A stretch of DNA of 54,668 bases, from the NCBI GenBank assembly GCA_021734245.1, contig JAIPJH010000009.1:1-54668 (forward strand). Direction: 5' to 3'. The DNA is from Candidatus Cloacimonadota bacterium. GTDB lineage: Bacteria; Cloacimonadota; Cloacimonadia; Cloacimonadales; TCS61. Made by a program: the position numbers and the translations under genes. Positions within the stretch are counted from its first letter, which is position 1, and each line of letters starts with the position of its first letter. This document shows positions 12,256 to 54,489 of the stretch, one piece after another. The notes beneath the pieces were generated by a model. The model saw nothing but the letters and a program-made list of their open reading frames with translations, was not told where the DNA came from and ran no database searches.

Positions 12256-12290
12256 AAAAAACCTTCCAGGAATTAGAAAACCTGGAAGGT
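12256..12290 (-). terminator. Terminator of the ptb-rpiB-glyA operon
   Basis: On the minus strand a perfect 10-bp stem ACCTTCCAGG/CCTGGAAGGT (12261-12270 with 12281-12290) is followed by TTTTT. It lies about 20 bases past the glyA stop. Confidence 0.9.
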
Positions 12291-12310
12291 TGAATGTTAT
12301 TATTTTAAAT

Positions 12311-34710: not shown

Positions 34711-34737
34711 TTCGAGTTTTTATTAGTTCAAATAGCA

Positions 34738-34772
34738 AACCTTCCAGGTTTTCGAAAACCTGGATGGTTTTT
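34738..34772. terminator. Terminator between ndk and the aminotransferase gene
   Basis: AACCTTCCAGGTTTT pairs with AAAACCTGGATGGTT (one mismatch) across CG, followed by five T. It is near-symmetric and lies between convergent genes, so it may serve both. Its arms share the CCTTCCAGG core with the glyA terminator. Confidence 0.88.
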
Positions 34773-37732: not shown

Positions 37733-38436
37733 CAAAGGCTTTCCTCAAACAGTTCTTCAATACTGGAAAGTTTGGAACGGTCGATACTGAAATTTACATA
37801 ATTGGCAAAGTTATCCAAGATGATGAGAGAATTTACATTGGCATCTTTTCCTTTCAAATAGGAAAGTCTTTTGAAAAATGCCAGATTTACATCATGAACT
37901 TTTTCGTAAATTTTGATTAAACCTTCTAATTCCCAATCCGGTTCTTCCCCTTTTTTATTTTTAAAATATTGCTGAACCAGATACATGCTCATGGCTCGAT
38001 ACAACGTTTCCTGTGGACTGGCAAAAGGCAGATGGAACCGGACCATAGGTTTCAGTTTGGAAAGGATCGGACAGCCGGAAGTTGCCATGATAATTCCGAT
38101 CATCGCACTAACTCCCTGCTGTAAGGAAGTATGCTTGCTGTAATTTCGATTTTTGGTTTCCAACACAAATACAGAATCTTCAAAACTTACAGAATCTTTA
38201 AAAAATTCCATGATGGGAAACAGATTTTTGGCGACCGGACAGTATTTCACTTCTTCAGAGTTCAATGAACAATTCGGGCATTGTTTGAATTCCAGCAATG
38301 ACCATTCAGGTAGATCTTCAGTTTCTTTTGGAATGATGCTCAAAGTTTTTGCATCCACCTGAATCTTGAAATCTTTTTGATTTCCATTCACGTCAATTAT
38401 GTGATATTTAAAATCTAAAATCAAATCTTCACTCAA
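37732..38436 (-). CDS. Conserved cysteine-containing protein (DUF6901-like)
   Basis: A 234-residue soluble protein. A CPNC...YCPVA motif (Cys53, Cys56, Cys66) could bind metal, and IIMATSGCPILSKLKPMVRFHLPFASPQETLYRAMSMYL is the strongly conserved core I associate with DUF6901. Function unknown. The start is a rare TTG at 38436, decided by GGAGGAGAA right before it. It is coupled to lpxB by a one-base overlap. The ribosome site is the end of a structured repeat (38438-38621). Confidence 0.65.
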   Translation of the reverse strand: MSEDLILDFKYHIIDVNGNQKDFKIQVDAKTLSIIPKETEDLPEWSLLEFKQCPNCSLNSEEVKYCPVAKNLFPIMEFFKDSVSFEDSVFVLETKNRNYSKHTSLQQGVSAMIGIIMATSGCPILSKLKPMVRFHLPFASPQETLYRAMSMYLVQQYFKNKKGEEPDWELEGLIKIYEKVHDVNLAFFKRLSYLKGKDANVNSLIILDNFANYVNFSIDRSKLSSIEELFEESL

Positions 38437-38437
38437 T

Positions 38438-38621
38438 TCTCCTCCTCGTTAGATCACGGCAAAGTTCCAAAACTGGAACGAAGCCGGATAATTCCCGGCG
38501 TAGCTTTGCAACGCCGGATTTTTCTTAATAACATCCGATTGTGCATAGCTCATCGGATCGTTGATCATAAAGCAAAAAACATTCGGAAGAATCCGGCAAA
38601 AGCCGGATGCATTCCGAAGTT
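38438..38621 (-). repeat. Intercistronic structured repeat, copy C
   Basis: Read on the minus strand: a long hairpin (38581-38621; ATCCGGC-TTTT-GCCGGAT inside TTCGGAA/TTCCGAA) followed by TTTTTT; one ATCCGAT/ATCGGAT unit (38530-38560); and a 57-base end (38438-38494). The end matches copy A without gaps and closes on GAGGAGGAGA, one base before the TTG start of the DUF6901-like gene. It sits between two co-directional genes. Confidence 0.8.
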
Positions 38622-40973: not shown

Positions 40974-41060
40974 AAAATTTTGAACTGGAGTTCAGGCTTG
41001 ACTGGACTTAAGAGCAAAAATTCTCGAGCACAGACGGAACTTAACTCAAGTCTTTTTCCC

Positions 41061-41446
41061 GTCATTTTGAAGCAATTCCCCTCTTGAGAGGGATGCGACT
41101 TTAGTCGCGGGGTGTGTTCACGTTGTGCTTACGGCTTCGCAAAGCTTCGCCGGACACAGTCGAGGGTAAAGCTAAAAAACCTCAGGAAGACGATGTTTTT
41201 TTTAGTCATTTTGAAGCAATTCCCCTCTTGAGAGGGGTGCGACTTTAGTCGCGGGGTGTGTTCACGTTGTGCTTACGGCTTCGCAAAGCTTCGCCGGACA
41301 CAGTCGAGGGTAAAGCTAAAAAACCTCAGGAAGACGATGTTTTTTTTAGTCATTCTGACGCAATTCCCCTCTTGAGAGGGGTGCGACTTTAGTCGCGGGG
41401 TGTGTTCACGTTGTGCTTACGGCTTCGCAAAACTTCGCCGGCACAG
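41061..41446. repeat. 144-bp direct repeats, 2.7 copies
   Basis: Copies start at 41061, 41205 and 41349, exactly 144 bases apart. The first two are nearly identical; the third ends about 41446. Each holds CCCCTCTTGAGAGGGG, GCGACTTTAGTCGC and further palindromes, plus a T run at its end. No gene lies in 40974-41706; the remainder is AT-rich leader of the next gene. Confidence 0.92.
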
Positions 41447-41706
41447 GTTGGAAGAATCTCATTGCAATTGCGAGATGTAAAGCTAAAAGAATGTTCACGA
41501 GATATTTCGAATGTAAAGTTAGAAGAATCCTCAATATGACGAATTACTTTTTCTTCCTTTTTTCGTCTCATTGCGGAATAAAAATTGCATCAAATATTTC
41601 CGCTTCAAGCTCTTGGGCAAAAAATTTTGCAGAAGCTTGACAGCAGAAATGAAATAAGTTAACATAAAATTAAGAGTTGGATTTGAACTTTGAAGGAAGG
41701 GGGAAG

Positions 41707-44613
41707 ATGATGAAAAAGATCGTACTATTGGGTTTTGTATTGCTTTCTGTTTTATTAACTGCACAATTTGAACCATTTGAATCAGTTGATGAAACCCCTG
41801 GTAACGAAAGCTTCCTAGGAAATGAAAGCTGTGCAACTTATAATGGAACAGCTTATTGGACATATTTGAAAAAAAATAATGGTCTGTTGGAAGTAATGCT
41901 AGCAAAAAAGCAAAATGACTTAATTGAATATTTTGTTGTCGTCGATAATCAAACATCCTACACTGATTTTTCCAAACCCACAATTTCAATTTCCGAAACA
42001 GGTTATATTAACGTAGCTGTATATACTCATAATGGTAGTTTACAACTATTAAAAATTTTCAGGTCTATGGATAATGGCAACACTTTTCAAAATATTGCTA
42101 GTTACCAGATTGGAAGCCAGGCGATTGATTCAAATCCATTTTTTAGTGAATCCGATAATATCTATCTAATGGGAAAAACCTACGATTCAGGAGTCTTTGA
42201 AAGATCATTAGCCAGCTTTCAGGTTTTCACAGAATACGAAACGAATGAAAATGGTATTCCTGCTCAATCTGGACCTATGACATATTGTGGAGCGAATGGA
42301 GAATATTTTGGACCGATTCATTCCAATGATGATATTTACATCAGTGAATATGGCGGCTGGCCGGTATTTCATGATTCTGTAACAACAGCAGGACAATTTA
42401 TCTCAATTAATGGAACAATTCCCTATGATGATGTTTTTTTAGGTGGATATACCGAAAACGTTGATCATCGTAATATCGATGCGAGCGTTCTACCAAACAA
42501 CGCTGCTCATATTGGAATGGGTGTAGATATTATTTATATGAAATTGAATGGTGGATCAATTCAAACAAAATATGGTAATATTGTAATAAGTGACACCCTC
42601 GAGATTCCAGTTTACAGTTGGTTTCCGCAAGAAGCTGCAACTGCAAATATCATGGCAAATGCCAATCAAAACTGGTTTGAAGAAACTGACGTGATCTGGA
42701 CAAATGAAGTAACCATCTACGATACAATCTGGTCGACTGGACCAACGCTTCCCATTTCTCCTTACGGATCAGCTTATTATTTGCCGGATTCCGAATTATG
42801 GATAGAAGGAGTGCTATCAGGTAAACTTGTTGTTGGAACATCAAAAAATGTATATATAGTTGATGATATTACTTATGCCAATACAACACCAGGTACACCG
42901 CCAGACGATCCAAATAATCCAAATACGACAGATTTTTTCGGTTTGGTTTCTGAACAAGATATTGTTATAAAATATAAACATCGCGATCCTTTTATGAATA
43001 ATGTAATAAGATCCGGAAACTGCAATGATGTATACCTTTATGGTGCTTATGCAGCTTTAGGATTAGGATCGGGAACAAATCCTCAAGACGATGGAATCTT
43101 TACTTTCGAATATCAGCATCCGCACGGTTCAACACCAGATTTTGTCGCTTTAAGCCCTTACACGATGCAGGATACTACTTACACTTTTGTTGATCTTCAC
43201 AAATACATTTTTCCAATTCAAGATAATTTACCGGCTAATATCGATGGATTCAATTTACACGGCAATATGCCAGTTGCTGCATATTTTTGCTGTGGCTATC
43301 CTTATGAAAGTGATGAATATGCAAACTCTTATCCCAATAACGATCCGCAAAATTACATCTATCCATATGGAACGGATTTTCCCTGGTACAATCCTGTTTG
43401 GCCGGAATCATCGGAAGATATCGTTTTTGAAAGGGGAACAATTCACCTTTGGGGTTCTATGGCTCAAATGAGAAAAGGTTACATTCATCGCAGTGGTAGT
43501 GATGATTTCAATCATCCACCTGGAAATAATGAATGGGATATCGATAATTTCCATTTCGATGGACCTCATCCTAGTACAGGTTATGATAAAAATTATCATT
43601 ATGACAGCAGATTGAACAGTGTCGAAATTCCAAATTATCCCACACTAAATTATGATGTTATGAATTTTGAAAGTTTAAATCTATATAAATCAGATAATAA
43701 CGGTTTCAGTTTTGAAGAAACCCATTCTTTTCCCATTTCTTCTGAAATCTCAAATTACCATTTCGATACAAAATGTGAAAAAATAGTAATCGCTTATCAA
43801 CTTGTAAACGATGATTACCTTCATTTAATTTATACTGAGAATAATCTAAATTATGAAGTATATGCTCTTCCCATTATAGATGGTACATTCAAAAAAGTAG
43901 CATTAGCCAATGATGTAATCATACTTCTAATTTCATACCCAAATCAAGATGTGGTTGCCGAATTCGATCCAATTAGTTTGGATTTTAATGTTTTAGGAAA
44001 CTACGAACCAAGTAATTTGACCTCACTTGTTTCAAACCCAGCTGGTTCTGTAATCTACATCCAGGAATCAGCAAACACTACTGAAACAGATTTTGATTTC
44101 AATTATACTAATACGAATTCCATTTTGGGTGGAATGTACAATTGGCAGTCACAGTTTTCGAATATCAACCAGGAATATTCCGATCTGGGAATAAATATTA
44201 TTTCTGATGATCAGGTAATATTAAATCTTCTTTTTGCTGAAGAAAATGCAGTTGAAAACTGGGGTAATCTTCATTCTTCTACTGGTTTTCTAGATGATTT
44301 CGTTGGTATTGTTCATTATGACGTTATAGAATCAGGAATATTACTCTCCAATTACCCCAACCCCTTCAATCCATCCACAACGATCAGCTTCAACGTAACG
44401 CAAAGTTCCGACTTTGCGACAATAGAAATCTACAACTTAAAAGGTCAAAAAGTGAAGACTTTCCCGATCTACCCATCAACTGATCAACCGATTAACTCGG
44501 TTACATGGAATGGAACAGATAATGACAACAAACCCGTTTCATCAGGAATTTATTTTTACAAATTGAAAGCTGGACAACTTGAGAAAACAAAGAAAATGTT
44601 GCTGTTGAAATAG
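41707..44613 (+). CDS. Large secreted protein with T9SS sorting domain
   Basis: A 968-residue protein with signal peptide MMKKIVLLGFVLLSVLLTAQ. I do not recognise the main body, which is acidic, aromatic and rich in Asn/Asp. The part FERGTIHLWGSMAQMRKGYIHRSG recalls adhesin-like proteins with GSI-x-Q-x-x-RG motifs. The sorting domain begins at SNYPNPFNPSTT (about 880) and ends MLLLK. It contains a 20-base DNA palindrome (44399-44418) translated within the first loop. The start is decided by GGAAGGGGGAAG before ATG-ATG. Inferred place: cell surface or secreted. Function unknown. Confidence 0.75.
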   Translation: MMKKIVLLGFVLLSVLLTAQFEPFESVDETPGNESFLGNESCATYNGTAYWTYLKKNNGLLEVMLAKKQNDLIEYFVVVDNQTSYTDFSKPTISISETGYINVAVYTHNGSLQLLKIFRSMDNGNTFQNIASYQIGSQAIDSNPFFSESDNIYLMGKTYDSGVFERSLASFQVFTEYETNENGIPAQSGPMTYCGANGEYFGPIHSNDDIYISEYGGWPVFHDSVTTAGQFISINGTIPYDDVFLGGYTENVDHRNIDASVLPNNAAHIGMGVDIIYMKLNGGSIQTKYGNIVISDTLEIPVYSWFPQEAATANIMANANQNWFEETDVIWTNEVTIYDTIWSTGPTLPISPYGSAYYLPDSELWIEGVLSGKLVVGTSKNVYIVDDITYANTTPGTPPDDPNNPNTTDFFGLVSEQDIVIKYKHRDPFMNNVIRSGNCNDVYLYGAYAALGLGSGTNPQDDGIFTFEYQHPHGSTPDFVALSPYTMQDTTYTFVDLHKYIFPIQDNLPANIDGFNLHGNMPVAAYFCCGYPYESDEYANSYPNNDPQNYIYPYGTDFPWYNPVWPESSEDIVFERGTIHLWGSMAQMRKGYIHRSGSDDFNHPPGNNEWDIDNFHFDGPHPSTGYDKNYHYDSRLNSVEIPNYPTLNYDVMNFESLNLYKSDNNGFSFEETHSFPISSEISNYHFDTKCEKIVIAYQLVNDDYLHLIYTENNLNYEVYALPIIDGTFKKVALANDVIILLISYPNQDVVAEFDPISLDFNVLGNYEPSNLTSLVSNPAGSVIYIQESANTTETDFDFNYTNTNSILGGMYNWQSQFSNINQEYSDLGINIISDDQVILNLLFAEENAVENWGNLHSSTGFLDDFVGIVHYDVIESGILLSNYPNPFNPSTTISFNVTQSSDFATIEIYNLKGQKVKTFPIYPSTDQPINSVTWNGTDNDNKPVSSGIYFYKLKAGQLEKTKKMLLLK

Positions 44614-44615
44614 TA

Positions 44616-44844
44616 AACTTCGGAATGCATCCAGCATCTGCTGGATTCTTCCGAATGTTGTTTGTATTTTATTAATTTAACAATCTGATGAACTGCGGAC
44701 AATCAGATGTTGAGAAACAATCTGATGAACTGCGGACAATCGGATGTTGAGACACAATCCGATGAGCTTCGCACAATCGGATGTTGAGGATTATCCGGCT
44801 TCGTTCCGAAAATCGAAACTACGCCGGGATCTTCGAGGAGGAGA
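44616..44844 (+). repeat. Intercistronic structured repeat, copy A
   Basis: Begins 3 bases after the stop of the upstream gene. Hairpin 44616-44659 (ATCCAGC-ATCT-GCTGGAT inside TTCGGAA/TTCCGAA); three 37-bp tandem units at 44681-44717, 44718-44754 and 44755-44791; then a 57-base end at 44788-44844 that closes on GAGGAGGAGA, one base before the lipoprotein ATG. The first 144 bases match copy B with two differences. Confidence 0.88.
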
Positions 44845-44845
44845 T

Positions 44846-45469
44846 ATGTTATTTAGAAAATTTAAAATCGTTCTAGTTATTTGCTCGATCTTGTTTTTAC
44901 TTTCCTGTACAAAATCTACCGAACCAACTGATCAAACAGTTTTCCAGCCATTGAATATTAGCGATTTCTGGGATTTCTATTTTAGTACGAATGACTCCGT
45001 TCTTAGATATTCAGTAGAAGAAAAACTTGATTTGCAAGTTGATGGTGAGTTGAAAGAAGTAAGCAGGATTAAAATGGCTAATCTTAATTACTATCAATTC
45101 AATGATGACGACGGTTTGCATGCTGTAAGAAAATTGCAAAGTACAACTGGGCAAGACAGTTTACTGGATTATTCTTATCTGCTTTATAAATTCCCTGTCG
45201 AATTAGATGAAACGTGGATTCAAGATCTCGATAACGATGGATTTACAACAGGAGATAATACTGTAAAATGTGTTTCCAAAGATTACTTGATCAATTATGA
45301 TGGTGAAAATTTACACTGCCTTGTTTATAAAACCTATAGCCCTGATTTAAGTGATAACTACGTTCTCTCTTATTTCTGTCCTGGAATCGGTTTGATAAAG
45401 CAAACAATTTTCGACTTGGAGAATAACTCCATCCAAGAAAAGTATTTGGTTGAATATGAATTGAACTAA
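44846..45469 (+). CDS. Putative lipoprotein
   Basis: A 207-residue protein with a lipoprotein signal: MLFRKFKIVLVICSILFLLSCTKS, with the lipobox cysteine in LLSC. After it comes a low-complexity linker (TEPTDQT) and an all-beta, acidic soluble domain not recognised. I chose the ATG at 44846, directly after the GAGGAGGAGAT ribosome site; the longer upstream frame (from 44744) is only translated repeat sequence. Its flanks are near-identical repeats (copies A and B), so it may be a movable or duplicated cassette. Anchored to a membrane; role unknown. Confidence 0.72.
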   Translation: MLFRKFKIVLVICSILFLLSCTKSTEPTDQTVFQPLNISDFWDFYFSTNDSVLRYSVEEKLDLQVDGELKEVSRIKMANLNYYQFNDDDGLHAVRKLQSTTGQDSLLDYSYLLYKFPVELDETWIQDLDNDGFTTGDNTVKCVSKDYLINYDGENLHCLVYKTYSPDLSDNYVLSYFCPGIGLIKQTIFDLENNSIQEKYLVEYELN

Positions 45470-45625
45470 CTTCGGAATGCATCCAGCATCTGCTGGATTC
45501 TTCCGAATGTTGTTTGTATTTTATTAATTTAACAATCTGATGAACTGCGGACAATCAGATGTTGAGAAACAATCTGATGAGCTGCGCACAATCGGATGTT
45601 GAGACACAATCGGATGTTGTGAAAG
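45468..45625 (+). repeat. Intercistronic structured repeat, copy B
   Basis: Starts inside the lipoprotein stop codon. The same hairpin as copy A (45468-45511), then two 37-bp units (45533-45569, 45570-45606) and a truncated third (to about 45625). The SD-bearing 57-base end is missing; the following 45 bases before the next gene are unrelated. Confidence 0.85.
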
Positions 45626-54402: not shown

Positions 54403-54489
54403 AACCTTGCGGATGGTCATTTGACCTCCGCAATGGTTTATTATGCAACCATTCGTAAGGTCTTATAAATTAAACCATTACGAAGGTTA
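54403..54489 (+). repeat. Two related long hairpins downstream of the last cargo gene
   Basis: Bases 54403-54438 form AACC-TTGCGGA / TCCGCAA-TGGTT around an inner GGTC-ATTT-GACC. A second hairpin (54447-54488) pairs AACCATTCGTAAGGT with ACCATTACGAAGGTT imperfectly. The two resemble each other. The stretch 54360-54393 also repeats CTGATGAAATAG from the gene end. Confidence 0.65.

Follow-up and report, generated by a model that had tools for sequence, protein, structure and literature searches.

Architecture of the repeats

The window, i.e. the whole analysed stretch of 54,668 nucleotides from a Candidatus Cloacimonadota bacterium, harbors copies A, B, and C of a repeat that is composed of a leading hairpin and one to three 37-bp units. 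Copy A (44616-44785) begins 2 bp past a stop codon (44611-44613) with a long-loop hairpin on the minus strand (44616-44659; DNA fold of -12.9 kcal/mol, z of -6.25), which is followed on the plus strand by three 33-nt hairpins, namely unit 1 (44679-44711; stem ATCTGAT/ATCAGAT), unit 2 (44716-44748; ATCTGAT/ATCGGAT, with a T.G pair in the stem), and unit 3 (44753-44785; ATCCGAT/ATCGGAT, with a C-G pair in the stem and the first base of the tag changed to C). The long-loop hairpin and unit 1 form an inverted pair with a spacer of 19 bp. Copy B (45468-45620) consists of a first hairpin on the minus strand (45468-45511), the AAC of which overlaps the TAA stop codon of a lipoprotein-like gene, two plus-strand units matching the stem-free pattern described below (45531-45563 and 45568-45600), and a plus-strand remnant of unit 3 (45604-45620), which carries a 19-nt deletion between ACAATC direct repeats, as judged from the comparison with copy A. 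A small gene lies between copies A and B, which are 98% identical across 149 bp, so that they should be regarded as nearly one observation. Copy C contains a long-loop hairpin on the plus strand (38578-38621), which is a G-C variant (ATCCGGC/GCCGGAT), and a 33-nt unit on the minus strand (38530-38562; ATCCGAT/ATCGGAT) with G instead of A as the bulged base. An Rfam search of the window at the gathering score returned only a tRNA and nothing that coincided with the repeats.

The leading hairpin and the 37-bp unit represent one element, present in two loop sizes and in opposite orientations, a relation that was overlooked in an earlier note on this DNA. The common plan is AAC-[A]-7 bp-G[A]-inner hairpin-[A/G]C[A]-7 bp-GTT, which reads AAC-A-TTCGGAA-GA-[inner hairpin]-GCA-TTCCGAA-GTT for the leading hairpin on the minus strand and AAC-A-ATCTGAT-GA-[inner]-ACA-ATCAGAT-GTT for the 37-bp unit on the plus strand. 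Feet of AAC/GTT, one bulged A, and a stem of 7 bp are thus common to both, as is an inner hairpin whose length varies, and in both sizes there is a G-C pair with each base next to an unpaired A. The 37-bp unit is in itself a tandem of two half-units of 18/19 bp. We refer to the element as the AACA hairpin.

Covariation of the stems

The earlier note had taken paired base changes in these stems as a sign of selection on the structure of an RNA or a hairpin-forming DNA, as opposed to chance palindromes. The changes are read directly from the window: the unit stems have T-A in unit 1, T-G in unit 2, and C-G in unit 3 and copy C, and ATCCAGC/GCTGGAT in the leading hairpins of copies A and B corresponds to ATCCGGC/GCCGGAT in copy C. 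Inside the window alone, the evidence is thin, since the unit stem and the leading hairpin contribute a single variable pair each and the only other one is an inner pair, which had escaped notice and is an A.G mismatch in units 1 and 2 and G-C in unit 3. Because each unit consists of two half-units, the sequence ATC-N-GAT is half self-complementary and pairs with itself except at N, so that only one pair of the unit stem truly covaries in the window. It is the genome-wide set that settles the matter.

The genome was scanned with the pattern AACANTCNGANGAN{6,32}CANTCNGANGTT, in which the N's, representing three stem pairs, and the loop are free. This stem-free pattern retrieved 44 copies of 33-47 nt from the genome of 3.1 Mb, whereas its reversal, used as a control, retrieved none. 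As the bases in question are left free by the pattern, complementarity at these positions is an unbiased test, and Watson-Crick pairs were present in 44, 41 (plus two G.T), and 44 of the 44 copies, compared to shuffle means of 30.4, 20.9, and 23.6 (maxima of 40, 31, and 36). The three pairs occur as T-A, A-T, or C-G, as G-C, C-G, or T-A, and as A-T or T-A, respectively, and the inner pair, which is likewise free, is seen as G-C, A-T, C-G, and T-A. An alignment of 37 distinct 33-mers from the window genome and related genomes yielded a covariation score of 0.336 vs. 0.069 for shuffled and at most 0.044 for slid sequences; 98.8% of its cells pair, and four column pairs change on both sides. The check by a larger alignment, on which the earlier interpretation had been made to depend, thus supports it, and selection on structure holds for both the genome-wide set and the 37 sequences.

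The unpaired bases, which had also been overlooked, are as conserved as the stem. None of the 37 distinct 33-mers deviates at A4, A13, A23, or either foot, and hardly any at A21, bearing in mind that the pattern fixes the feet, A4, GA, and CA, and that their invariance in that set is by construction; a relaxed scan and the scan of relatives revealed few departures from the fixed bases, such as the bulged G at 38530-38562. These bases also bear on a purely mutational origin of the paired changes, by template switching at quasi-palindromes during replication, in which one arm is copied from the other. Such a process would yield double changes in one step, and the tandem units and the deletion in copy B indeed show local replication slippage, but neither the bulged A nor the internal mismatch would survive it, contrary to the constancy of the unpaired adenines, and the changes are common to dispersed copies and genomes. 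Template switching instead of selection is therefore considered very improbable.

Genomic setting and distribution

Of 63 pairs of neighbouring copies, 46 are inverted (-/+), with the AACA ends turned towards each other, and the gaps are mostly 9-21 bp. Nearly all copies are intergenic, either single or paired, and often located 1-4 bp past a stop codon; in the 12 cases with a gap of at most 14 bp, it is always the GTT end, as read on the AACA strand, that points to the stop codon. The flanks of the copies do not, as a rule, show a T-run after the hairpin. An array of units of about 65 bp, built from pieces of the AACA hairpin, was observed on contig C23 of the window genome (L014).

The element is present in 17 of 59 relatives, and a scan of the GTDB collection returned 86 stretches, nearly all of which belong to Cloacimonadota (including Candidatus Tenebribacter) or to MAGs labelled as Armatimonadota. 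The Armatimonadota-labelled JAUWNO MAG is genome G022, which is placed in the window genome's own family. Outside these main groups, there is one Spirochaetales copy and one Omnitrophota-labelled contig with five AACA hairpins in alternating orientation (L165, 5414-5633), which reflects either a transfer or a misbinned contig. Single matches from the same scan in Hydrogenophaga and Prevotella formed no hairpin and were dismissed as chance. Two phage-like IMG/VR contigs (L196-L199) carry inverted AACA pairs, and in L199 the pair begins 3 bp past a gene adjoining the portal-protein gene, with genes for a head-maturation protease and a major head protein downstream. The location of inverted pairs among these head and portal genes indicates that phages can carry them, and the phage contigs are possible vehicles for AACA pairs between hosts. 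In the searched literature on Cloacimonadota or Cloacimonas, nothing relevant was found on such repeats (REP, hairpins, or transposase repeats).

A view on orthologous gene junctions shows that the copies are missing from most relatives. The MoxR/DUF58 junction measures 0-66 nt in most of them and contains no hairpin, while the window genome (G000) has one AACA hairpin 2 bp past the stop codon and G008 an AACA pair of its own, roughly 100 bp farther along. The junction that follows the prolyl-tRNA synthetase (ProRS) gene, with 0-40 nt and no hairpin in most relatives, contains an AACA hairpin 3 bp past the stop codon in the window genome, an ACCG-type hairpin 6 bp past the stop codon in G002 from the same genus, and neither of these in G001. 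Because the gains affect different positions and involve different families, the junction copies are not ancestral there. These comparisons, which were made between genera or distant congeners, show the gain of copies rather than its mechanism, and no insertion or excision intermediate was seen in them.

The location behind stop codons may suggest a function in RNA, in which the hairpins at mRNA 3' ends serve as a barrier to exonucleases or as transcription terminators and the covariation results from base pairing in the RNA. This would agree with the short distance of only a few bp between many copies and a stop codon, with the constant end facing it in the 12 cases mentioned, and with the role of REPs in mRNA stability elsewhere (PMC3733652). 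Terminators were rejected, however, for want of a regular T-run after the hairpins, and neither the absence at orthologous junctions nor the sequence-specific unpaired bases and tags, which track the transposase clades described below, are expected of a conserved mRNA element. Moreover, RNA stems usually tolerate many G-U pairs. In a tally of 228 copies from all loci, each with at least five of seven Watson-Crick pairs, the 1596 stem pairs comprise 1566 of the Watson-Crick type and only 11 (about 0.7%) G.T, next to 6 A.C and 13 other mismatches. This rarity of wobbles is more in line with DNA than with RNA. An RNA function therefore appears improbable. The choice between RNA and DNA had been left open in the earlier note; the evidence now points to DNA, and the covariation is best explained by the recognition of folded single-stranded DNA.

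The associated transposase

In G022 (L110/L200), a gene for a REP-associated tyrosine transposase (RAYT) has pairs of precisely the AACA hairpin on either side, and a RAYT gene of G031 (L201) is likewise enclosed by AACA pairs on both sides; L128 represents the same kind of locus. The two RAYTs are 72% identical and are the only AACA-type ones seen, being sisters of each other. The AACA-flanked RAYT belongs to the Pfam family Y1_Tnp (9.7e-10) and has kept the HUH and catalytic tyrosine motifs, with H55, H57, and Y115 invariant in 12 homologues. A 12-row RAYT profile gave TnpA-REP (4er8; 1.3e-6) as best match in the PDB, while a PDB search with one single RAYT sequence found nothing. The predicted structure (pLDDT 84) matches IS608, ISDra2, and TnpA-REP, and the fold alone ranks IS608/ISDra2 and TnpA-REP alike.

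The window genome, which is 98.5% complete, contains nine Y1_Tnp (PF01797) genes, and no AACA hairpin is located less than about 1.5 kb from any of them. Its own RAYTs were rejected as cognates of the AACA hairpin, several of them being flanked on both sides by other palindromes. Since no AACA-type RAYT was found there, the AACA copies of this genome look like orphans, and probably are. Searches of relatives revealed no AACA-flanked RAYT in G008 (45 copies) and no Y1_Tnp gene at all in G041 (26 copies). In the latter genome, positions 1-924 of contig C78 (L067) consist of tandem 166-bp units with one AACA hairpin each. As a separate observation, the C-terminal tail of one Y1_Tnp protein of the window genome is apparently encoded by its own palindromic repeat (GTTCCCAAACGGGAGTTTGGGAAC; L060, 1147-1895), a feature that is also known from RAYT subclass 2.4.

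The terminal AAC and GTT and the extrahelical bases recall attC sites, and copies A and B enclose a small gene, which raises the question of recombination sites of an integron-like system with AAC ... GTT boxes. This idea is largely refuted by the flanks, which do not contain RYYYAAC or GTTRRRY boxes and lose conservation at once outside AAC and GTT. As the copies are also dispersed and enclose a Y1 transposase gene rather than forming an IntI array, and sister families carry ACC/GGT in place of AAC/GTT, attC sites were rejected, their probability being close to nil.

Sister hairpin families

These sister families surround more distant RAYTs of the phylum (42-48% identical), whose flanking hairpins have the same plan with ACC/GGT feet and other unpaired bases, i.e. 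ACC-A-stem-GG..CA-stem-GGT or ACC-G-stem-GG..CG-stem-GGT. RAYTs flanked by this hairpin plan belong to one clade (94/93) and the AACA ones among them to one subclade (100/98). The flank labels require 4 changes on the RAYT tree vs. 8.7 when shuffled, in a tree with a not fully settled bootstrap and with one member (L209) unlabelled by the scan. The window genome carries two of the families, the AACA type and 43 copies of the ACCA type as counted with one pattern. The latter plan (ACC-A-stem-GG..CA-stem-GGT) is represented in the window by a hairpin at 54404-54437 on the minus strand, which forms an inverted pair, with a spacer of 10 bp, with a partner hairpin at 54448-54487 on the plus strand.

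The sister families thus differ in foot triplet and unpaired bases in step with the RAYT tree. It may tentatively be proposed, with somewhat more doubt than confidence, that the foot triplet and the three extrahelical bases constitute an address that RAYT lineages have changed in step, with AAC going with A/A/A and ACC with either A/G/A or G/G/G. From a single scaffold, one clade of Cloacimonadota transposases would then have derived several hairpin codes that exclude each other, so that two families could live side by side in a genome and reach the same sites behind stop codons independently of each other. As the scaffold is the same and its letters differ with the RAYT tree, the bases which a RAYT reads are directly testable by letter swaps.

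Probable assignment to the REP/REPIN elements

The hairpins are scattered between genes and surround the gene for a single-strand DNA transposase in two relatives, which makes their membership in the REP/REPIN class very probable. It appears highly likely that they represent a Cloacimonadota family of REP/REPIN elements, i.e. imperfect palindromes of 33-47 nt, usually in inverted pairs, that would be recognized as single-stranded DNA by a RAYT, a Y1/HUH nuclease. They are very probably a new branch of REP/REPIN miniature mobile DNA rather than an RNA device, as indicated by a hairpin plan that tracks one Y1/HUH clade, the inverted pairs, the absence at junctions, and the scarce G.T pairs. As expected for the class, a palindrome within the range of 20-65 nt is present in many intergenic copies (44 in the window genome), and inverted pairs have short spacers. 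Copies flank a RAYT gene, as in a REPtron, in G022 and G031, but not in the window genome, and the RAYT has the Y1_Tnp domain, the HUH motif, and a single catalytic tyrosine of TnpA-REP, with a profile nearer to TnpA-REP than to TnpA-IS200. The tag of the copies is AAC(A)/GTT and not GTAG/GTGG or CGTC, which bars them from the GTAG and CGTC super-families, not from the REP class, because RAYT-flanking REPs without GT[AG]G have been described for RAYT subclass 2.6 and class 3 (PMC6006769). As judged from arrangement and partner, this is a REP/REPIN-RAYT system in neither of the two super-families. Such systems are thereby extended to a candidate phylum, in which the tag resembles neither GTAG nor CGTC.

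The REPs of other taxa are also paired, located 3' of genes, and found next to RAYT genes (PMC3733652, PMC6006769). With the E. coli REP (GTAG-3 family; RAYT subclass 2.2), the Cloacimonadota element shares the short intergenic imperfect palindrome with a mispaired region, the many copies, mostly 3' of genes, the inverted pairs with short spacers, and the flanking of a Y1/HUH gene (PMC3733652, PMC6006769, PMC8266576). It differs in the phylum, in the missing GTAG/GTGG tag, in its fixed unpaired adenines, and in its paired end triplets AAC/GTT, which are set off by one extrahelical A. The "double foot" REPs of RAYT subclass 2.4 (PMC6006769) are likewise bounded by a tag and, at the opposite end, by the reverse complement of this tag, but theirs are GT[AG]G ... 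C[TC]AC, whereas the Cloacimonadota hairpins have AAC ... GTT or ACC ... GGT, the tag being interrupted by a bulged base. The atypical REPs of RAYT subclass 2.6 (Bacteroidetes) and class 3 are also REP-like RAYT flanks without GT[AG]G and with copies elsewhere in the genome (PMC6006769); they have been described as weaker and as detected by hand, whereas the Cloacimonadota hairpins are strong and have a fixed plan. Finally, the ends of IS200/IS605 elements (IS608, ISDra2) resemble the repeats in their single-stranded DNA hairpins, foot tetranucleotide, and Y1/HUH transposase of the same fold, but no element with left and right ends around TnpA was found here, and the hairpins are mainly dispersed pairs.

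TnpA-REP of E. coli cuts folded single-stranded REPs, requires the tag and a mispaired bulge, and is inactive on a fully paired stem (PMC8266576). By homology, each Cloacimonadota repeat would fold when its DNA becomes single-stranded during replication, and the RAYT would read the stem, the extrahelical adenines, and the AAC/GTT foot of the folded form. Cutting and joining by the enzyme may then copy or move pairs to new intergenic sites, often just behind stop codons. A change in the stem would survive only when the hairpin is restored, which would account for the compensatory changes. The orphan AACA copies of the window genome are probably now altered by local slippage, as in units 1-3 and the deletion in copy B, and mRNA ends would be affected, if at all, only in a secondary way. 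As a warning for the study of metagenome-assembled genomes, covarying hairpins between their genes may be DNA substrates of a transposase and not RNAs.

Further repeats of the window

Copies A and C are each followed by another hairpin of the type ATCCGGCTTCG...GCCGGGAT (44786-44825 and, on the minus strand, 38430-38510), which sits just before GAGGAGGAG ribosome-binding sites and possibly represents another repeat family. Two copies of a palindrome, AAACCTTCCAGG...CCTGGAAGGTT, at 12259-12291 and 34737-34769 are 88% alike and may constitute a further REP type. In addition, a 144-bp tandem repeat with 2.7 copies, which are 97% alike, extends from 41053 to 41484 and adjoins a mosaic of small repeats.
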